DNA from: a virus
Reading direction: 5' to 3' (one strand)
Length of the DNA: 22,517 bases
Virus record (IMG/VR): IMGVR_UViG_3300031576_000279
Location: 1-22,517 of that record
The translations under genes were made by a program, and so were the position numbers. The notes under the pieces were generated by a model. That model was not told the origin of the DNA. It did not search any database and saw nothing but the letters and a program-made list of their open reading frames with translations. Of the stretch, positions 6,922-22,517 are shown in pieces (within the stretch, counting starts at the first letter, position 1; each line of letters starts with the position of its first letter).

Positions 6922-7395
6922 TTGTTTTTTCAAAAAAAAATTGAGTCGTCTAGCGATGATGTCGATTTTTCCAAGAGTGAATTTATCGGCGCGCCCGAAT
7001 TAGATTCGAAGTCGGTTCAGTCGATTATACTCTGGCCGTCTTCGCGTGAGATACGCCTTTTGCTAGATACCGAATGGCTTGATAGCGGGGGCCACACTTT
7101 TTATCCATCTGTGCACGTGGCTTGGTGTGCATGGAATGATGATACTACATTCACTTGGCAATACTTTTCAATAGATGAATTTATTATTCGCGGCGACACG
7201 ATAGTCATTCATACTCAAGAGCTTGCCGTGCTTGATTATCAGATGAATGGCGTCAACTTTTCTTTTCGTGCGCGGCTGTCGTCGGCAGGAGTGCAGACTG
7301 ATTGGGTGAGATTGCCGGAATCGATACGGCTTTATGATGACAAGAGACGTGGTGTACCGCAGATGCCGCGCTCACTCCGATTGATCAGGCCATGA
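6922..7395 (+). CDS. Hypothetical beta-rich protein, uncertain start
   Basis: 157 residues if it starts at the TTG at 6922, four bases after the stop of the upstream gene and in the same frame. No good Shine-Dalgarno site precedes this TTG, and there is no earlier in-frame ATG except through the TGA at 6916. The body alternates hydrophobic and polar residues with many aromatics (HTFYPSVHVAWCAWNDD, FTWQYFSIDEFII), as in a beta-sandwich. Its TGA overlaps the next ATG (ATGA at 7392-7395). Function is unknown. The start, or a fusion with the upstream membrane anchor, needs experimental proof. Confidence 0.65.
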   Translation: MFFQKKIESSSDDVDFSKSEFIGAPELDSKSVQSIILWPSSREIRLLLDTEWLDSGGHTFYPSVHVAWCAWNDDTTFTWQYFSIDEFIIRGDTIVIHTQELAVLDYQMNGVNFSFRARLSSAGVQTDWVRLPESIRLYDDKRRGVPQMPRSLRLIRP

Positions 7396-7715
7396 TTAAT
7401 TTGATTATTGTTGTTTTAATTCTCTTGGGTGGCGCTTTTCGAGATGGAATATCTGAACGTGCTGAAAAGGTTGGTTGGCTGTCATGGCACGTCGCTGGAT
7501 GGATTGCACGTGACCTCGTCGCATTGCTGATTGCAATTCAATTTGCGTTGCAGCATCGCTTTTATGAAGTGTTGATTGTTGCTTTTATTGCAACTGGGCA
7601 TGAACAATTTTATCTGCTTGGCGTTGAAGTTCGCTCTAAGCTTACCGGTCCCATCGATCCGCCGCGCTGGTTTTTAAAGTTACGTAAATTATGGACTTGG
7701 CTTCCATGGGCATAA
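7392..7715 (+). CDS. Integral membrane protein, holin candidate
   Basis: 107 residues, starting in an ATGA overlap with the previous gene. Hydrophobic segments lie at about residues 2-14 (INLIIVVLILLGG), 35-52 (AGWIARDLVALLIAIQFA) and 59-74 (EVLIVAFIATGHEQFY). The C-terminus is basic and rich in tryptophan (PPRWFLKLRKLWTWLPWA). Size and topology would suit a holin or another inner-membrane protein. No endolysin is recognisable nearby, so a lysis role is only possible. Confidence 0.7.
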   Translation: MINLIIVVLILLGGAFRDGISERAEKVGWLSWHVAGWIARDLVALLIAIQFALQHRFYEVLIVAFIATGHEQFYLLGVEVRSKLTGPIDPPRWFLKLRKLWTWLPWA

Positions 7716-7951
7716 GAACACAAAAATCCAATAGACTGCTGCGTGAAATCGTTGATCGGTTTCTGCAGTCACCATTACGGACGTGCAAAAATCGTCTGCA
7801 TCCATGTTATTTTTGCGATGTGAGAATTTTGAAAGGGGAAACCTATTACCGTTGGAGCGATTGGTTTGCCCATGATGTTTGCGTGAGGCGAGCAGATGGA
7901 AATCGAGTTGTGGAAAATGTTCGTTTTGAATCCGAGCCGGAGGCGCCTTGA
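7691..7951 (+). CDS. Small zinc-finger-like protein
   Basis: 86 residues, ATG at 7691 inside the end of the upstream gene. A second ATG at 7706 is possible. The centre carries a likely zinc site: C39-x2-C42 in HPCYFCDVRILKGE and H61-x2-C64 in FAHDVCV, with a Gly-Glu-x-Tyr turn between them. This CxxC...HxxC layout recurs in small phage proteins of unknown function. The C-terminus is acidic. It probably binds a nucleic acid or protein partner, which is inference from the motif alone. Confidence 0.68.
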   Translation: MDLASMGIRTQKSNRLLREIVDRFLQSPLRTCKNRLHPCYFCDVRILKGETYYRWSDWFAHDVCVRRADGNRVVENVRFESEPEAP

Positions 7952-10254: not shown

Positions 10255-11091
10255 CTATTTAAAATAAAGCGTTTCTTGATTTGTCCCTTTTCGCCAATGT
10301 TCCATGCGTTTTCTGCATGACGCGGTGGCGAGAAATTGTTTCAAAGAAGCGATCGGTCGCCCGCAGTCACAAGCGCATATTTTTGTAGCGGGCTGCTTTC
10401 CTTCCATCAGATCGCGAATTGTGGTCGCTACCACCATCCCCATCTGGAGAGGAACCCCGTTCCGGATGGCAAGATTCTTTCCGCGCCGACTTAGTCCGGA
10501 AAGCTCAAAGCTTTCCGGCAAATCGAACATGGTGCACAATCGCGCCCACGGTGTTTTCAACGCCTGCTCGCCGGTGGGCGTCGGTGTAAATTGGCCATTG
10601 TGATTCACCCGGTGGATCACAAGCTTTGAGCCATTTTGATTCCACCATGCCAATTCGTTTTCTTTCGGCACGGTGTTTTTTGTCACTCCGAATTGAAAAT
10701 GCCTTCGTCGCAGCATCTCACCGCCGCATTCACGATGAGTGAGATCGAAGCGCTGATGCGTGTAGCCTTCGATGCGGATTGAAGGGACTGAAGGAACATT
10801 TTCCCAAAGCCACCAACTCGGCTTGGCTTCTAAAATGACGCGCGCGCCTTCGGCGATCAGTGAACGAGCTGAAGATTTTTCCGCTTCAGTGACTTGGCCA
10901 CGCCGGACGCATGACCATGCTTGGCACGGACTGCCGAGAATCACTCCGTCGAATTTTCCAGATGGTGCGTGAAAGTCTCGGATGTCATGGCCGAAGGCTA
11001 TGTCGCCGGCAGAGACGACGCAAAAGCCGGTGCGCTTGAACGCCATGCCCAACAAGTCGATTCCGCTGAAAAGACTGAGAACAAGTTTCAT
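10255..11091 (-). CDS. DNA (cytosine-5) methyltransferase
   Basis: 278 residues. It transfers a methyl group from S-adenosylmethionine to C5 of cytosine. Motif I is VLSLFSGIDLLGMAF (residues 4-18), motif IV is GSPCQAWS with catalytic C56, motif VI is ENVP (97-100), an RRRHFQFG block (128-135) represents motif VIII, and a late QMGMVVATTI resembles motif X. The protein is shorter than typical enzymes, implying a small target-recognition region. The C-terminus adds a cysteine cluster (KICACDCGRPIASL then SCRKRMEHW) that may bind zinc. An AGGA site precedes ATG 11091. In a phage early operon it most likely protects viral DNA from restriction. No partner restriction enzyme is certain. Confidence 0.9.
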   Translation of the reverse strand: MKLVLSLFSGIDLLGMAFKRTGFCVVSAGDIAFGHDIRDFHAPSGKFDGVILGSPCQAWSCVRRGQVTEAEKSSARSLIAEGARVILEAKPSWWLWENVPSVPSIRIEGYTHQRFDLTHRECGGEMLRRRHFQFGVTKNTVPKENELAWWNQNGSKLVIHRVNHNGQFTPTPTGEQALKTPWARLCTMFDLPESFELSGLSRRGKNLAIRNGVPLQMGMVVATTIRDLMEGKQPATKICACDCGRPIASLKQFLATASCRKRMEHWRKGTNQETLYFK

Positions 11092-11124
11092 TTTCCTGCC
11101 TGCAACATTTTAAACTTTGAAGCT

Positions 11125-11202
11125 TCAAGCATTTGAAAAAAGGTTTGATCGGTATGCCGAGCGGTTTGGCGACATTTTGCTTTTATAGTTTTTAATTTTC
11201 AT
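11125..11202 (-). CDS. Tiny ORF, 25 residues, coupled to the nuclease gene
   Basis: The ATG (11202-11200) overlaps the stop of the upstream nuclease gene in an ATGA junction, the coupling used throughout this operon. It encodes a short basic peptide starting MKIKNYKSKMSPNRS. Support is only the junction and composition. Confidence 0.3.
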   Translation of the reverse strand: MKIKNYKSKMSPNRSAYRSNLFSNA

Positions 11203-11513
11203 GATTGCTCCAGAATGAATTTTATTGCATGCCCCTTCGTTACCATTGCAGGGGTGAAACGATAGACTTTCCACCCCATGCTTTGGGCCGTATTGATTTT
11301 TTCGTAGTCGGCAGGCGACATATGTTTTCCGCCGCCGAATTTATAACCGCCGCCGTCAATTTCGATGGCCACTTTTTCCGCTGGCCACGCGAAGTCGAAA
11401 CGCCATTTCCGCGTTGGATGAAACCTAAATTCAGCGACGGGCGCCGGCAAGCCATTGCTCTGGAGCTGGAGCAAGAGCAACTGGCTTGGTTCAAGTTTTA
11501 GTCCGTGTGTCAT
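11199..11513 (-). CDS. PD-(D/E)XK endonuclease, VSR/DUF559-like
   Basis: 104 residues. The core shows R35-K-W-R-F-D40-F followed by E51-I-D53-G-G, the metal-binding layout of the VSR/DUF559-type restriction-endonuclease-like fold, then an H-M-S loop and a late GWKVYRFTP strand. Such proteins nick or cut DNA at mismatches, junctions or specific sites. The gene lies between an adenine and a cytosine methyltransferase, so a link with DNA modification or branched-DNA resolution during replication is plausible. The ATG at 11513 overlaps the upstream stop by four bases. It is not a complete restriction system by itself, and the substrate cannot be told from the sequence. Confidence 0.75.
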   Translation of the reverse strand: MTHGLKLEPSQLLLLQLQSNGLPAPVAEFRFHPTRKWRFDFAWPAEKVAIEIDGGGYKFGGGKHMSPADYEKINTAQSMGWKVYRFTPAMVTKGHAIKFILEQS

Positions 11514-12061
11514 GGACTTTTTTTACGGTTCGTCGGATGCGGCTTTGATTCTTCAACTATTTCATCAGCGACGGCGACGACGTTGAGCTTGCTTTTTTTC
11601 TTTGGCTCGTCCAGCGCAAGCGTTTGCTGCGCACGGACGCCGTTCATGAAGTCGCTGGCGAGTTGCTTCAATTCATTGAGTAGATCGACGGCCTTTCCAG
11701 ATAAACAGAATTCGCTTTTTTCGGCCCCCTCTATCAACGAATACTTTACCTGAGTGCTCAGGGTTAAGGGGCGATTGGAGTTTTCAAATTCGATGGTGCA
11801 GTGCAGGTAGCAGCCCAACGCCCCTGCTTCCGACTTCTTGAATCCAACTTTGTTGACGCGGTATTTTTTTACAGCGTCGGATTTAAACCAGCCGTTCGTA
11901 ATTTCATTCCCAAGCGGTTTTAAACGCATGAACGCGTTTACGAACTCCGGCGCCGGCGTCATAGCGTCAACGAGCACACTGCTGACTGTCTGCGTTTCGT
12001 GAACTTCAACGAAAGAAATTTCAGTGATTTCTTTCGTCATTTTGATTGACGTGATTTCCAT
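11510..12061 (-). CDS. Conserved-type phage hypothetical protein in the recombination/modification operon
   Basis: 183 residues, ATG 12061 preceded by GGAGAGCAATT, overlapping the methyltransferase gene by 41 bases. The N-terminal 140 residues alternate strands and helices (SVLVDAMTPAPEFVNAFMRL; GALGCYLHCTIEFENSNRPL). The C-terminal tail, from about residue 150, is charged and probably disordered (DEPKKKSKLNVVAV). The overall type resembles proteins that accompany Sak4 and exonuclease genes in phages, but I cannot name a family. A single-strand DNA binding or annealing accessory role is possible. There is no catalytic motif. Confidence 0.65.
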   Translation of the reverse strand: MEITSIKMTKEITEISFVEVHETQTVSSVLVDAMTPAPEFVNAFMRLKPLGNEITNGWFKSDAVKKYRVNKVGFKKSEAGALGCYLHCTIEFENSNRPLTLSTQVKYSLIEGAEKSEFCLSGKAVDLLNELKQLASDFMNGVRAQQTLALDEPKKKSKLNVVAVADEIVEESKPHPTNRKKSP

Positions 12062-12755
12062 AATTGCTCTCCGTTAAAACTTTCAACATAGCGTTGCGCT
12101 CGATGGGCGCCATCGCAGTGAATTTTTTTAGCCATCGGTTTTGCATCTTCCGTATGCGTTCGCGTTCGCGGAAGGTGTCGCCGATGAATCTGTAATCATG
12201 GCGTTCCGGCGATGCGTCCGGATTGAAGTTCATCCATATGCATTCCTCGCGCCTGCCGGCTCGTGTTTGCGCCATGAACGTTTTTTTCGTCCATATTGGT
12301 GCACGGAGAACACGATTGTACATTGTGCTGTCGTAGCCTGAAATCATCACGTAGCATTTAAGTTTAGTGATGACCGATAAAAGTTTTTCGTGGCATTCTA
12401 CGGAAAACTTGTGTTTGTATCGCTGTCGGCCTCGGCCGTTTTGTTGGTACAGCTTGCTCGGCAGATACGGCGGGTCGAGATAGATCAGCAAGTTTTTGTA
12501 CCAGCCGATGCGTTGTTCAAGCCATTCGAATGCACATACGCACTCGATACAAAATTCTTCTGGCCCAGCCGGTGTAATAATCTTGCTTACGACGTCGGCA
12601 TCGATGTCGCCGGCGAAGTTGTAACTCGCTGGGCGTTTGGTTCCGAAGATTGTTGCCGCGCCTGCGAACAATTCTGCATACGCGGAATGTGGCGGCATCC
12701 ACGAAATTATCTTTTGTGCCGTTCCAGATGCACCTTTTCCACCTGGGTAGCTCAT
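12021..12755 (-). CDS. DNA adenine-N6 methyltransferase, Dam/D12 class
   Basis: 244 residues. The N-terminus has the YPGGKG element (3-8) and AYAELFAGAATIF (25-37), the S-adenosylmethionine-binding motif of D12-class enzymes, and the catalytic motif is DPPY at 94-97. The order of motifs fits the alpha group (Dam type). Its ATG overlaps the stop of the Fis-like gene (ATGA). The product is a little shorter than E. coli Dam. Likely roles are protection from host restriction or marking of replicated DNA. The recognition sequence cannot be read from the protein, though GATC is common for this class. Confidence 0.9.
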   Translation of the reverse strand: MSYPGGKGASGTAQKIISWMPPHSAYAELFAGAATIFGTKRPASYNFAGDIDADVVSKIITPAGPEEFCIECVCAFEWLEQRIGWYKNLLIYLDPPYLPSKLYQQNGRGRQRYKHKFSVECHEKLLSVITKLKCYVMISGYDSTMYNRVLRAPIWTKKTFMAQTRAGRREECIWMNFNPDASPERHDYRFIGDTFRERERIRKMQNRWLKKFTAMAPIERNAMLKVLTESNYGNHVNQNDERNH

Positions 12756-13305: not shown

Positions 13306-13311
13306 ACTTTA

Positions 13312-13395
13312 TGCGAATCGGAGGATTCGAACCTCCATGCCCTTTCGGGCACCGGCTCCTAAGACCGGCGCGTCTACCAGTTCCGCCAGACTCGC
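13312..13395 (-). tRNA. tRNA-Leu (anticodon UAG)
   Basis: Acceptor helix GCGAGTC/GATTCGC closes with one G-U pair, with discriminator A at 13312. The anticodon loop CTTAGGA gives UAG, reading CUN leucine codons. The long variable arm TGCCCGAAAGGGCA and the D-arm are typical of class II tRNA-Leu, and the T-arm contains GGTTCGAATCC. No CCA is encoded. It lies in the minus-strand operon. Confidence 0.93.
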
Positions 13396-13398
13396 ATT

Positions 13399-13551
13399 GA
13401 AACCGTGTAGGCGTTGCATTGATGAGAAAGCATTGCTGTTTTGGACGCCTCGTTAGCCCGCTCAGACCTCGCGTTTTTAGCGGTTATCAAGCCGCATCGC
13501 GTACGCTTAGCGGTCTGTCTGACCCTTTGCAGCAGACAGGCTCACGGTTTC
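13399..13551 (-). ncRNA. Structured spacer RNA candidate between the two tRNAs
   Basis: GAAACCGTG (13399-13407) and CACGGTTTC (13543-13551) form a perfect 9-base-pair closing helix. Inside are three further helices: AGGCGT/ACGCCT (13409-13414 with 13445-13450), GCGG/CCGC (13480-13483 with 13492-13495) and CTGTCTG/CAGACAG (13515-13521 with 13533-13539). The closing helix begins one base from tRNA-Met and three bases from tRNA-Leu, so normal tRNA end processing could release it as a discrete RNA. Confidence 0.5.
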
Positions 13552-13552
13552 G

Positions 13553-13626
13553 TAGCGAAGGCAGGACTCGAACCTGCACGGTTCATGGTTATGAGCCATG
13601 TGAGATGCCTGTTTCTCCACTTCGCT
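13553..13626 (-). tRNA. tRNA with CAU anticodon (Met, or Ile2 if modified)
   Basis: The seven-pair acceptor AGCGAAG/CTTCGCT is perfect, with discriminator A at 13553. The anticodon loop CTCATAA gives CAU, and the T-arm has GGTTCGAGTCC. It could decode AUG, or AUA if the wobble C is lysidine-modified; the sequence alone does not decide. No CCA is encoded. Confidence 0.93.
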
Positions 13627-17623: not shown

Positions 17624-17834
17624 ACGCGCTCTTGTTCTTTGCGGAGCCTCGTTCGACATGCAGCATAGGATGTTCATTTTGCATTTGATGCTCAGGGTTA
17701 GGTTCACAGCCATAACGGATGCAAAAAAGAACCGCTGAAGAATTTGAGAATAGACAGATTTAAGCACGGTGAGATTTTCCGCTCTACGCTCTTATAAAGC
17801 CGGAAGGGTACGAGGCGACGTCGAAACGACACTA

Positions 17835-17859
17835 TCGGGGAAGGAATCTCCTTCCCCGA
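17835..17859. repeat. Perfect 11-base-pair hairpin next to the T-less tract
   Basis: TCGGGGAAGGA and TCCTTCCCCGA are exact complements separated by only ATC. There is no T-run immediately after it on either strand, so it is not a clear terminator. It ends 27 bases before the T-less tract begins. Confidence 0.75.
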
Positions 17860-17886
17860 CTTGAGCAATTTTATTAATGGCCGCAT

Positions 17887-18592
17887 AAAAAAAACCGGCC
17901 CGCCAGCCAAACAACAGCCAGCGGACCGGAAAGCACTCAGCCCCGAACCAACACCCAGCCCGGACAGCGGAACCACAACCCACGCCAGACCGAGCACGGC
18001 CGGCCAAGAGGAACGAACCGCCCGAACCCACGCGACCAACGCCAGCCACAGCGCCCGCACCCGCACCGCGAACAAGCGAGAGGCCCACGCGCGCCCCCCA
18101 CGGCACAGCGCCCGCACCGGAAAGCACGGGCACCGCACCAAGCACAAACGAAGCGCACCAGCACAACGCGCTCAGCAGCCACGAGCCACCCCCGCCCCAG
18201 GCCAGCACGGAGCAAAAGGACCAAGCAAACGGCCGACCCGAAAGAACGAGGCCGGACCGCACCGGAAGGAAAGCCAGCCCCAGCGCAGAGACACGAACAC
18301 CAGCGCGCCACGGCCAGACCCGAGCGACCGCACACGCGCCACCGGACGGAACCAAACACCGGGCGCCAGAACACCCAAACGCGCGGCAACGGCAAAGGCA
18401 ACCGCCCGCCCGAACGAATCACAGCGCACAACGAGCAACGAACCGCGACGGGAGAGACCAACCGAACACGGCAGGCCAGCCAACCGCCACACGAGAGACA
18501 ACAGCCACGAAACGGACACAGCGCACCTCCGAAAGCAAAGACAGCCCGCAGAGCACCGCACCGGCACTCACCGGCACGCGGCCCCCGCAGGC
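17887..18592. other. Thymine-depleted tract of about 706 bp (adenine-depleted on the other strand)
   Basis: The plus strand here has only five T (17937, 18172, 18419, 18528, 18568), including uninterrupted T-free runs of 234 and 246 bases. By hand count 17941-18540 has A 187, C 252, G 158, T 3. Flanks on both sides have ordinary or T-rich composition and the borders are sharp. Since every stop codon contains T and A, all six frames are open; the 252-residue plus frame at 17861-18619 and long minus frames, including one at 17937-18887, follow automatically. The 17861 frame starts at a TTG without a ribosome site and would give a basic low-complexity protein with some preference for C at third positions, so coding is possible but unproven. 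Confidence 0.9.
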
Positions 18593-19113
18593 ATTTACAC
18601 GGACGCGCGCGGGTTTTAGCAAAATTTTGTTCTGTTCGCATATAAAGATGTCCTGTCGGCTGCGCGGCGATTATAATTATTTTTTTTCGCGTGTTTTTAA
18701 CCCCGTAAAAACCAATAGCTTTGTTTTTTTTCTTGAGCGTGAGAATCAAGTTTATTGCGCCTTTCGTGAGGGCGTTTCGCCCGCGCTGGAGCAATAACCC
18801 CAAGATGAAAAGCCATTGAGTTTTTTGTTTGCGGGGTAACGCGAAAAAAAACACCACAAAGTTAGCCGCGCAAGACGCAGGACACACCTTTAAAAAAGCG
18901 AACGGAATAAAATTTTGTCGCTCTACCGCGCGCGTTTAACGGGAAACTGCGGCGGCGGCGTCACGCTAAGGATTGGTTCATTCGTTTTTGGTTACTTATG
19001 ATTTGAGGTTTTGTTAATTTTGCATCACAGGGCTGATTGCTACCCGTATGTTTGGATTTGCGTGATATCTGTTTGGATCAACACTGGCTTGATGAAATTG
19101 TATCACATTCTTC
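18593..19113. other. Right part of the control region, no supported gene
   Basis: 521 bases rich in T-runs and small palindromes, for example CAAAATTTTG near 18620 and AAAATTTTG again near 18910. TTTGGAT occurs twice around 19050-19076. A minus-strand frame enters from the T-less tract, but it has no ribosome site and no protein-like pattern. I see no RNA gene apart from the hairpin listed separately. Confidence 0.5.
18752..18797. repeat. Two-level hairpin in the control region
   Basis: TTATTGC (18752-18758) pairs with GCAATAA (18791-18797), and inside it GGGCG-TTT-CGCCC (18770-18782) forms a second stem. No T-run follows. It could be an RNA processing site or a protein-binding cruciform. 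Confidence 0.45.
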
Positions 19114-19142
19114 TTGACTTCGAATCGCGAACGTGCTATATT
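19114..19142 (+). promoter_or_regulatory. Sigma-70-type promoter of the replication operon
   Basis: TTGACT (19114-19119), a 17-base spacer, and TATATT (19137-19142). It is the best -35/-10 match I saw in the window. It gives a leader of roughly 150 bases before the replication gene. Confidence 0.8.
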
Positions 19143-19188
19143 GAAAGCATCGTAAGCGCTTGCCAAGGCGTGAGCGATTGACGAAATA

Positions 19189-19289
19189 GGTGTGAATTTT
19201 ATCGAGATCCCTGATCGGGGCTTGTCTCCAAGTCGATTTTCACACCGTCGATGAAGAGTTGGCCTAGCCCCGATCAGGGATTTTTATTT
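19189..19289 (+). promoter_or_regulatory. Attenuator-like leader with mutually exclusive hairpins
   Basis: ATCCCTGATCGGGGCT (19207-19222) and AGCCCCGATCAGGGAT (19266-19281) are perfect 16-base complements followed by TTTTTATTT, which makes an intrinsic terminator just before the ribosome site at 19292. A second stem, GGTGTGAA (19189-19196) with TTCACACC (19239-19246), would trap the 5' arm of the terminator in its loop. The two folds therefore compete, as in transcription attenuators and riboswitches. The ligand or trigger is unknown. Confidence 0.6.
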
Positions 19290-19301
19290 CTGGAGATGGC
19301 G

Positions 19302-20228
19302 ATGGATATTCATGTTCTTAGAAATTTGGTTATGAGGTACGGAGCCGAGTTGAAACTTACGTCGGTTGAGAAGGAATGCTTGTGGCACCTTCTCGATCAT
19401 GATCATGACGGCAAGGGTTATTGTTACCCGAGTGCGTTGCGCATTTCAAAACGGATGGGGATATCGCATCGTTACGCGCAAGCCGTGATTGATCGACTTG
19501 CGAAAAAGTATAATCTGATTTCGATCAATCATCGGGTTGGAACGTCGAATCAATATCGTTATCACGGTGCGATGAAGGCTCTGACGCCGATGCTGCAGCG
19601 AGAGTTGGGTAAGGGAAAGAAACGTGTTGAGCGATCAGAAAAGCAGCTCGATTTGTTGAATTCGGCCAGCAAAACCTACGATCCACAGATCGTACCCCCA
19701 TACGATCCACAGATCGTACCCCCTACGATCCACAGTTCTACCCCCCTACGATCCACAGATCGTACTAACTCTGCAAGTGAACACTTCAAAGAGAACTCTT
19801 CTATCTTAACTCCCGTCGTAGAGAACTTTGATTGTCTTTTGGAATATTGGAATGACATGGCAATAATTGTTCATACGATTGCACCGCGGGACGAAAAGGC
19901 TGATTCCGGCCGCCGAAGTTTTTTTGAAGCTGTTAGCAAACGTCTTGCTGAAGGGCATACATGGGATGATTTACGACAGGCGATTCAGAATTATCATGAC
20001 GTTTTGGTTTCAGACGAACACCGGTTTAATTTTCGTTGGACGATAACGCAATTTATCAATCGCGGCTTCGATCAATTTCTTGATCGCAAAACCGCATGGG
20101 AAAATTACAAGAAATCGAATTTTGAGAAGAAAGGAAACTCGTATGCAGAGCAGCAAGCCCAATCCCTCAAACGATATCGCGAAGCTGTCGCCTTCTGCGA
20201 AAGAGAAGATCGTGAAGTATCTCAGTGA
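19302..20228 (+). CDS. Replication initiator with internal iterons (lambda O-like)
   Basis: 308 residues from ATG 19302, six bases after TGGAG; the longer frame from 19251 would run through the terminator stem and is unlikely. Residues about 18-75 form a winged helix-turn-helix (LTSVEKECLWHLLDHDHDGK; GISHRYAQAVIDRLAKKYNL) of the HTH_36 kind used by phage and plasmid replication proteins. Four iterons lie in the middle of the gene (codons 126-155), and a helical C-terminal domain (residues about 180-275) may load a helicase. Lambda O has the same plan: DNA-binding N-terminus, origin iterons inside the gene, and partner-binding C-terminus. It is controlled by the upstream attenuator-like leader and promoter. 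Confidence 0.8.
   Translation: MDIHVLRNLVMRYGAELKLTSVEKECLWHLLDHDHDGKGYCYPSALRISKRMGISHRYAQAVIDRLAKKYNLISINHRVGTSNQYRYHGAMKALTPMLQRELGKGKKRVERSEKQLDLLNSASKTYDPQIVPPYDPQIVPPTIHSSTPLRSTDRTNSASEHFKENSSILTPVVENFDCLLEYWNDMAIIVHTIAPRDEKADSGRRSFFEAVSKRLAEGHTWDDLRQAIQNYHDVLVSDEHRFNFRWTITQFINRGFDQFLDRKTAWENYKKSNFEKKGNSYAEQQAQSLKRYREAVAFCEREDREVSQ
19677..19764. repeat. Four iterons, probable replication origin
   Basis: TACGATCCACAGATCGTA occurs exactly at 19677-19694, 19701-19718 and 19747-19764, with a degenerate copy at 19724-19740. Each is a hyphenated palindrome (TACGAT and ATCGTA arms), and spacers are runs of C. Starts are 24, 23 and 23 bases apart. Because 23 is not a multiple of three, the encoded peptides differ, so the DNA itself is conserved. 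Confidence 0.85.
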
Positions 20229-21218: not shown

Positions 21219-22517
21219 AGTTTTCCGAATTTTGTCGTTTTAAAAATTCGCAGTGGGAAGCTACTGAAAATGCGGATCGATATAAATATTTTCTCTACGG
21301 CGGGCGACGCGGAGTGCTTAAGTCGTATTGGCTTCGTTGGTACGGCCTTCGTCGCTTGTTAATGTTTGGAGCGCAAGGGTTCCGCAATGTTAAAGTAATG
21401 TTGGCTTGCGAAGATTTTCCTACCTTGACTGATCGTCAAATTTCCAAAATACAAACTGAATTTCCGCGCGAGCTTGGTGAAATCAAGACGACTCGTATTG
21501 ATGGATTTTGTTTTCATTTACGGCCGGAGTTTGGTGGAGGTAAGCTCGCCTTTCGTTCTCTCGATGATCCGCAAAAGTTTCGAGGCTCAGAGTGGGCAGG
21601 GATTTTAATTGATGAACTCACGCAGAATGAAGAGTTTATTGATCGAGAGCTTTCTCTTTTTGATGTGCTTCGAGGATCGCTGCGCTGGCCGGGCATTAAT
21701 CAAACTTTTTTTGCTGCGACGTCAAATCCTGATGGCCCCGGGCAACTTTGGGTTCGGAAACTTTTCGTGGAAAAAAATCCCCCTGATTATCTTTTACCAG
21801 AGAAGGAGAAGTTTTGTTATCAGCGCGGTGTCGTTGAGGATAAAATACTTTTGCCGGACAGCTATTGGCAAATGCTCGATACGCTTTCGCCGAAACTTCG
21901 AGAGGCTTGGGTGGATGCGAACTGGTATGTAACTTTTGAAGGGTTGGTTTTTCCTGAGTTTACCGAGTTGAATTTGACTGATGAAGAGCCGGAGAAAACT
22001 CTACCTGTTGAATGTTCGATTGACGACGGGTACGAGGACCCGCGCTCTATTCTTTTCATTCAGCGCAAGGGGATTTACTATTTTATTTTTGATGAGATTT
22101 ACGAAAATCATCGGCTTGCTGAATATCATATCACTGAAGCGAAGAAACGTCTTGCCACTCACGGTTTTAAGAATTTTCGTATGGCTGTGACGTCCAACGA
22201 AGATGCCGAGCTACGTGCTCAGCTTAGTCGCAACGGCATTGCTTCCGAAATTGGCTCGCATGATGTCATTGAAGGAATTAACCGAATGCGACGTCAAATC
22301 GTGGATTCTCAGGGCGTTCGACTCATTAAAGTGCATCGTCGGTGTCGCAATCTTATCAGTGAATTTACTGAGCGCTACAAATATCCATCGAAGAAAAAAG
22401 TATTGAGTACCGAGAAGCCTCAAGATGGAAATGATCATGCGATTGAAGCGCTTCGGAAATGGTTGTGGGTGCGGACCAACAGAGGGGTTGGAATAAGTTT
22501 TCCAGAGAGAGAGAGAG
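21215..22517 (+). CDS. terL: Terminase large subunit, N-terminal part (continues to 231 through the join)
   Basis: The ATG overlaps the TerS stop. The full protein has 468 residues. It is the ATP-driven DNA packaging motor. Walker A is YGGRRGVLKSYW (28-39, Lys at 36), Walker B is ILIDE (130-134), and motif III is AATSNPDGPG (168-177). The nuclease domain shows SIDDGYEDPRSI (269-279) and FIFDEIYENH (290-299), and the late DGNDHAIEALR lies across the join at 1-231. Codon 392 ends at 22390, and bases 22391-22517 repeat 1-127. All motor and nuclease elements are present, so it should be active. Confidence 0.95.
   Translation, partial: MKFSEFCRFKNSQWEATENADRYKYFLYGGRRGVLKSYWLRWYGLRRLLMFGAQGFRNVKVMLACEDFPTLTDRQISKIQTEFPRELGEIKTTRIDGFCFHLRPEFGGGKLAFRSLDDPQKFRGSEWAGILIDELTQNEEFIDRELSLFDVLRGSLRWPGINQTFFAATSNPDGPGQLWVRKLFVEKNPPDYLLPEKEKFCYQRGVVEDKILLPDSYWQMLDTLSPKLREAWVDANWYVTFEGLVFPEFTELNLTDEEPEKTLPVECSIDDGYEDPRSILFIQRKGIYYFIFDEIYENHRLAEYHITEAKKRLATHGFKNFRMAVTSNEDAELRAQLSRNGIASEIGSHDVIEGINRMRRQIVDSQGVRLIKVHRRCRNLISEFTERYKYPSKKKVLSTEKPQDGNDHAIEALRKWLWVRTNRGVGISFPERER
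22391..22517. repeat. Terminal direct repeat, right copy (circular overlap)
   Basis: Identical to bases 1-127; see the left copy. Removing one copy gives a circle of 22,390 bp in which terL is intact. Confidence 0.95.

Follow-up and report, generated by a model that had tools for sequence, protein, structure and literature searches.

A 707-nt tract almost devoid of adenine on one strand, most likely a leftward non-coding RNA gene ending in a terminator, from a small tailed-type phage

Results

The window, that is, the whole stretch of DNA that was analysed (a record of 22,517 bases), begins and ends with the same 127 bases (positions 1-127 and 22391-22517), which indicates that this phage genome, of about 22.39 kb, is complete and circularly closed. 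Genes for the terminase, the portal, a head protease and the major capsid protein were identified in it, together with those for a RecE-like exonuclease, an O-like replication protein and DNA methyltransferases. The methyltransferase genes, of the C5-cytosine and N6-adenine types, are located at 10255-12755 with a small DUF559-like endonuclease gene between them, and genes for tRNA-Leu and tRNA-Met are found at 13311-13626, within the leftward block of genes. No tail genes were recognised in addition to the head module in these ~22.39 kb, and the genome is possibly that of a very small tailed phage or of a capsid-coding satellite. Leftward genes run from 17168 downwards and rightward genes from 19251 upwards. 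A first reading made from the sequence alone (hereafter named the sequence-only reading) had placed the tract studied here between divergent promoters, and at the level of the genes this was correct. The ~2 kb separating the two divergent blocks contain no convincing coding frame, and the tract lies inside this gap, upstream of the O-like replication gene.

Other elements were observed around the tract. A second non-coding region (18594-19290) shows strong structure for either strand (z about -5) and contains a promoter matching 9-10 of 12 positions (19114-19142) as well as a long-range inverted repeat at ~19208-19290 (ATCCCTGATCGGGGC / GCCCCGATCAGGGAT), which is followed by T; this region is likely a leader RNA or attenuator ahead of the replication gene. 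Inside the replication gene itself, at ~19677-19766, palindromic repeats spaced by C runs (TACGATCCACAGATCGTA) are present. A related viral contig, L034, carries palindromic repeats of the CGGAACTACAGTTCCG type at ~60-130, in the same place as those of the window although the sequence differs, and by analogy these repeats resemble the origin located inside the lambda O-type gene. Just downstream of the A-free unit, at 17834-17860, there is a 12-bp hairpin of normal base content.

The base composition of the tract was then established by direct counting. On the plus strand, positions 17887-18592 (706 bases) comprise 219 A, 297 C, 185 G and only 5 T, in agreement with the number of T given by the sequence-only reading. 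These T are at 17937, 18172, 18419, 18528 and 18568, so that on the minus strand the only remaining A are those at 18568, 18528, 18419, 18172 and 17937. The two T-free runs of more than 230 bases that had been reported were confirmed, with lengths of 246 (18173-18418) and 234 bases (17938-18171), and another run reaches 108 bases. In full, the tract spans 17887-18593 (707 nt) and is flanked by a T at 17886 and by TTT at 18594-18596. The sequence on both sides of it is indeed ordinary, as had also been noted: T makes up 28.7% of the bases outside the tract, and elsewhere in the window the longest T-free run is 28 bases. Arithmetically, at this T content, the expected number of T-free runs of 246 bases in 22.5 kb is ~5e-33. 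The longest T-free or A-free run in related viral loci was 73 bases, and in 21 full records of related viruses, checked on both strands, there was no T-free run of 80 bases. Tandem and dispersed repeats within the tract were limited to short, weak ones.

The ends of the tract were analysed on the minus strand, where it is A-free. Its 3' edge is formed by an intrinsic terminator, which consists of a 15-bp stem-loop (17895-17929; five G-U pairs, loop UUGUU) and a run of eight U (17887-17894). The edge coincides exactly with this U8 run, and position 17886, directly after it, holds the first ordinary A of the minus strand. No other stem of at least 12 bp followed by at least seven T in eight positions was present on either strand of the window, the terminator therefore being unique. 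At the opposite edge, a weak minus-strand promoter candidate (TTGCTA-17-TGTAAA, 18594-18622, eight of 12 consensus positions) has a -10 box that immediately precedes the A-free tract, the TGTAAA hexamer ending at 18594; sites matching 8 of 12 positions arise by chance about once per 100 nt. An alternative candidate on the same strand (18670-18699, nine of 12 positions) combines a perfect -10 box, TATAAT, with a poor -35 box. This putative promoter is situated 76 nt upstream of the tract edge and would give rise to a 70-nt leader containing A. Because the promoter at the edge is weak and the better -10 box lies 76 nt upstream, the 5' edge is regarded as a candidate start site only. The 3' limit of the unit is strong and the 5' limit suggestive only; overall, it is quite probable that the tract constitutes a leftward transcription unit.

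RNA folding was strand-specific. The minus-strand RNA of the tract showed a minimum free energy (MFE) of -352.5 kcal/mol versus -326.7 (sd 6.5) for dinucleotide shuffles (z about -4, with none of 60 shuffles as good), whereas the plus-strand RNA folded no better than its shuffles (z +0.7). When G-U pairs were forbidden, the folding signal of the minus-strand RNA was lost (z +0.96). Every long stem of this RNA is rich in G-U pairs; stems of at least 15 bp that contain them were commoner than in shuffles (3 versus 0.57), and stems of at least 6 bp made up of Watson-Crick pairs only were rarer (2 versus 5.75). This indicates that G occupies the helix positions at which A would otherwise face U. 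Within the 3' half, which folds at z -4.1, lies an 18-bp hairpin (18101-18140, minus strand) with eight G-U pairs and the loop UUCC. For the 5' half alone folding was not significant (z -1.0); a hairpin domain that begins 1 nt inside the tract (18544-18592, minus strand) is predicted there in both the MFE and the centroid structure. The z value dropped to -2.4 after removal of the terminator and to -1.2 when the 18-bp hairpin was removed as well. Since the signal comes mainly from these two elements, no elaborate fold is claimed, and the large "ornate" fold that had been considered is weakened by these values. Most of the A-free RNA may be unstructured. A covariance-model search of the tract against Rfam gave no match; a PreQ1 hit of 21 bits was below the threshold and was taken as chance.

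One important question is how adenine was lost from this strand. One-strand adenine deamination (A to G) was among the options offered by the sequence-only reading, and such a model predicts that purine runs become G runs, with the pyrimidine pattern unchanged. Runs of four or more G appear in the tract at 0.51 of the shuffled expectation, versus ~1.0 in A-to-G-converted controls. This ratio was lower than that of each of 318 control windows subjected to A-to-G replacement (120 windows of this genome, four of flanking non-coding sequence, 30 of rRNA and 164 of relatives). Assuming an ancestor like this genome or rRNA, as these conversion tests do, nine dinucleotide ratios jointly rejected the A-to-G model (0 of 274 as far for this genome, 0 of 78 for rRNA), and replacement of A by a composition-matched base mix was compatible with the dinucleotides of the tract (0.135). 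Simple Markov likelihoods were mixed and their outcome varied with the training set. Wholesale A-to-G conversion of ordinary sequence is thus disfavoured by the G-run and dinucleotide statistics, and the deamination option is weakened in its simple form.

The contexts of the five remaining A provide a hint in its favour. On the plus strand all five T precede C, which means that on the minus strand each of the five A is preceded by G (chance 0.013); in addition, four of the five belong to TGA (chance 0.0016), and the fifth is within a GGAGG before GTG. As these contexts were looked at post hoc, both p-values are optimistic. The contexts could have arisen by chance, be what is left by a process sparing 5'-GA, or represent real translation signals. 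The sequence 5'-GA is a context that adenosine deaminases tend to disfavour.

A broader form of this explanation is A-directed mutation, in which a phage or host deaminase, or error-prone copying, targeting the non-template strand or the RNA of this transcription unit, would have turned nearly all A into G, and possibly into other bases, either recently or continually. The edges of the tract match the transcribed region, A-U pairs have apparently turned into G-U pairs in the long helices (the terminator and the 18-bp hairpin), all the remaining A are in 5'-GA, and genome-based models slightly favour A-to-G over a simple absence of A. However, A+G of this genome, its relatives or rRNA would, once converted, contain more G runs and GG dinucleotides than the tract does. 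The phage ORFs scanned included neither a deaminase nor a reverse transcriptase. Moreover, rRNA pieces mostly lose their folding signal on in silico A-to-G conversion, in contrast to the tract, which retains such a signal. Ordinary mutation creates new A, and an old, single event of loss would have decayed in this way; the A-free state is therefore probably maintained, either by selection or by a continuing process. An unconverted copy of the tract was searched for in the phage and its relatives after letter collapse, and nothing convincing was obtained above reversed controls, the best matches (43 bits) being short stretches in distant records. Taken together, we consider A-directed mutation rather unlikely.

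A constraint on the DNA or on the plus strand was also considered. It would require a T-free, C-rich strand, or a U-free and poorly structured rightward RNA, for replication, recombination, packaging or Rho-type loading. The position of the tract ahead of the O-like replication gene, with gene blocks diverging on either side, agrees with this possibility, as do the poor structure of the plus-strand RNA and its content of C, well above that of G. Against it, the edge of the tract coincides with a terminator of the minus strand, and the origin-like repeats are elsewhere, inside the replication gene (in the same place in L034). Moreover, Rho sites may contain U. Such a constraint seems improbable to us.

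In order to assess the coding potential, 3-base periodicity was tested and none was found in the tract (p 0.33). As control, 11 of 12 genes of the window remained periodic after T-to-C or A-to-G collapse. The absence of T on the plus strand deletes all of its stop codons and the minus strand keeps four TGA, the long open frames of the tract being a by-product of this composition; no Pfam or PHROG match was obtained for them. A low-complexity protein encoded by the plus strand was rejected, given the lack of periodicity and of a family match, and the "unusual repetitive protein" proposed earlier finds no support, since the tract shows neither repetitiveness nor codon periodicity.

On the minus strand, the GGAGG motif that holds one of the remaining A is placed 6 nt before GTG (18517-18530) and opens a 115-codon frame that is closed by the TGA at 18174-18172. 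This arrangement, together with the four A found in TGA, would fit a translated A-poor message in which A has persisted only at positions required for translation, namely in four TGA stops and in the GGAGG ahead of GTG, and a single-sequence AlphaFold model of the frame reached a pTM of 0.47. Nevertheless, the frame lacks codon periodicity (p 0.94), which is displayed by 68% of gene pieces of equal length, and has no Pfam or PHROG match. Its model showed a low pLDDT (52) and no match at E 0.001 or better in a PDB fold search, and the model of a second minus-strand frame was poor (pLDDT 44). A translated message is therefore very improbable.

Relatives of the phage were recovered with capsid and portal queries. 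Two contigs of the metagenome IMG 3300037479, L034 and L006, have a related head module (portals 74% and 70% identical, respectively; the L006 capsid is 54% identical to that of the window), and both stop short of the tract: L034 starts inside the replication gene, ~1 kb from it, and L006 inside the terminase gene. The remaining capsid relatives were at most 36% identical and carried no comparable tract. Replication, exonuclease, SLOG-like and ATPase queries yielded no relative reaching the tract, and genome contig scans were also empty. No DNA relatives of the tract were detected among phage and plasmid records. An artefact of assembly or sequencing, or the joining of foreign synthetic DNA to the contig, would be consistent with relatives that end before the tract, but has very little to recommend it, since the contig closes with its 127-bp terminal repeat, the edge of the tract falls on a natural terminator, relatives from any source lack a T-free tract, and there is no match to phages or plasmids.

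Discussion

Among the options put forward for this locus, selection for an A-free transcript is the one that fits best, because the tract has its edge exactly at a minus-strand terminator, folds better than shuffles on the minus strand only and shows no coding signal. We conclude that the tract is real and very unusual. Most probably, a small tailed-type phage carries here a non-coding RNA gene that is A-free, is read leftwards and ends in a terminator. Our main reading, to which we assign a probability of about 0.4, is that the tract makes up the body of a non-coding RNA of ~700 nt, transcribed leftwards, from which A is excluded by a constraint blind to pairing. That selection on the RNA maintains the A-free state we regard as an even chance. 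The transcript would end at the terminator (17929-17887), the constraint would act on every transcribed position, whether paired or unpaired, and A would be replaceable by any base, mostly by G and in some cases by U. Tentatively, the tract may be a natural, functional RNA gene of ~700 nt without adenine throughout, which either would be made without ATP or would have its adenines removed by a dedicated process linked to transcription.

The absence of A from helices and loops alike, with G-U pairs retained in places where A-U pairs would be more stable, bears on the nature of the constraint. RNases that cut unpaired A should spare paired A, so that a plain defence against them explains only part of the observation; a constraint acting at synthesis would be indifferent to pairing. 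The mechanism that we find most likely, though improbable in itself, is that the RNA must be made or must work when ATP is scarce or poisoned, for instance when the host defends itself by deaminating or destroying ATP. An RNA needing almost no ATP for its synthesis would escape a defence of this kind. The RADAR system converts ATP to ITP during infection (PMC9994260). RADAR and other ATP-attacking defences might account for an RNA whose synthesis requires no ATP, although ITP could also replace GTP.

If the tract encodes a working RNA, a natural RNA dispenses with the base that is used in most tertiary contacts, and this would point to an undescribed pressure on phage RNAs, either ATP supply or an A-directed attack. 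If it is a product of mutation, it would point to a previously unrecognised A-directed mutator in phages, limited to transcribed sequence. Hypermutation of the ADAR or TadA type (A to I) likewise replaces A on one strand and leaves A after G; the tract differs in having lost at least 97% of its A, in G-run statistics unlike those of pure A-to-G change, and in belonging to a phage in which no deaminase was found. Diversity-generating retroelements, which perform adenine-specific mutagenesis (PMC3240598), also deplete one strand of adenines in a defined stretch. In our case, however, the target is non-coding and 707 nt long, and the loss is near-total rather than a scattered substitution. No reverse transcriptase was present among the ORFs scanned, which were phage genes (a host-encoded enzyme is possible), and no adenine-bearing template repeat for the tract was found in the window after letter collapse.

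A literature search revealed no precedent, either among natural RNA genes or among phage tracts. That three-letter RNAs can fold and work is shown by laboratory ribozymes that lack one base, the R3C ligase being descended from a ribozyme without cytidine (PMC4192621). In contrast to the tract, they were selected in vitro, lack C instead of A and are about ten times shorter. The ROOL and GOLLD RNAs are, like the putative transcript of the tract, large non-coding RNAs of several hundred nt from tailed-phage genomes (PMC12286853), and the phage of the window also has tRNA genes. Their structure relies on many A-minor contacts (PMC12286853). An A-free RNA cannot form such contacts. The tract also differs from them in its lack of an Rfam match and in a folding that rests on two hairpins. 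A distant relative, L012, contains a stretch of 777 nt without ORFs (7095-7871), of normal base content, in which both strands fold better than shuffles.
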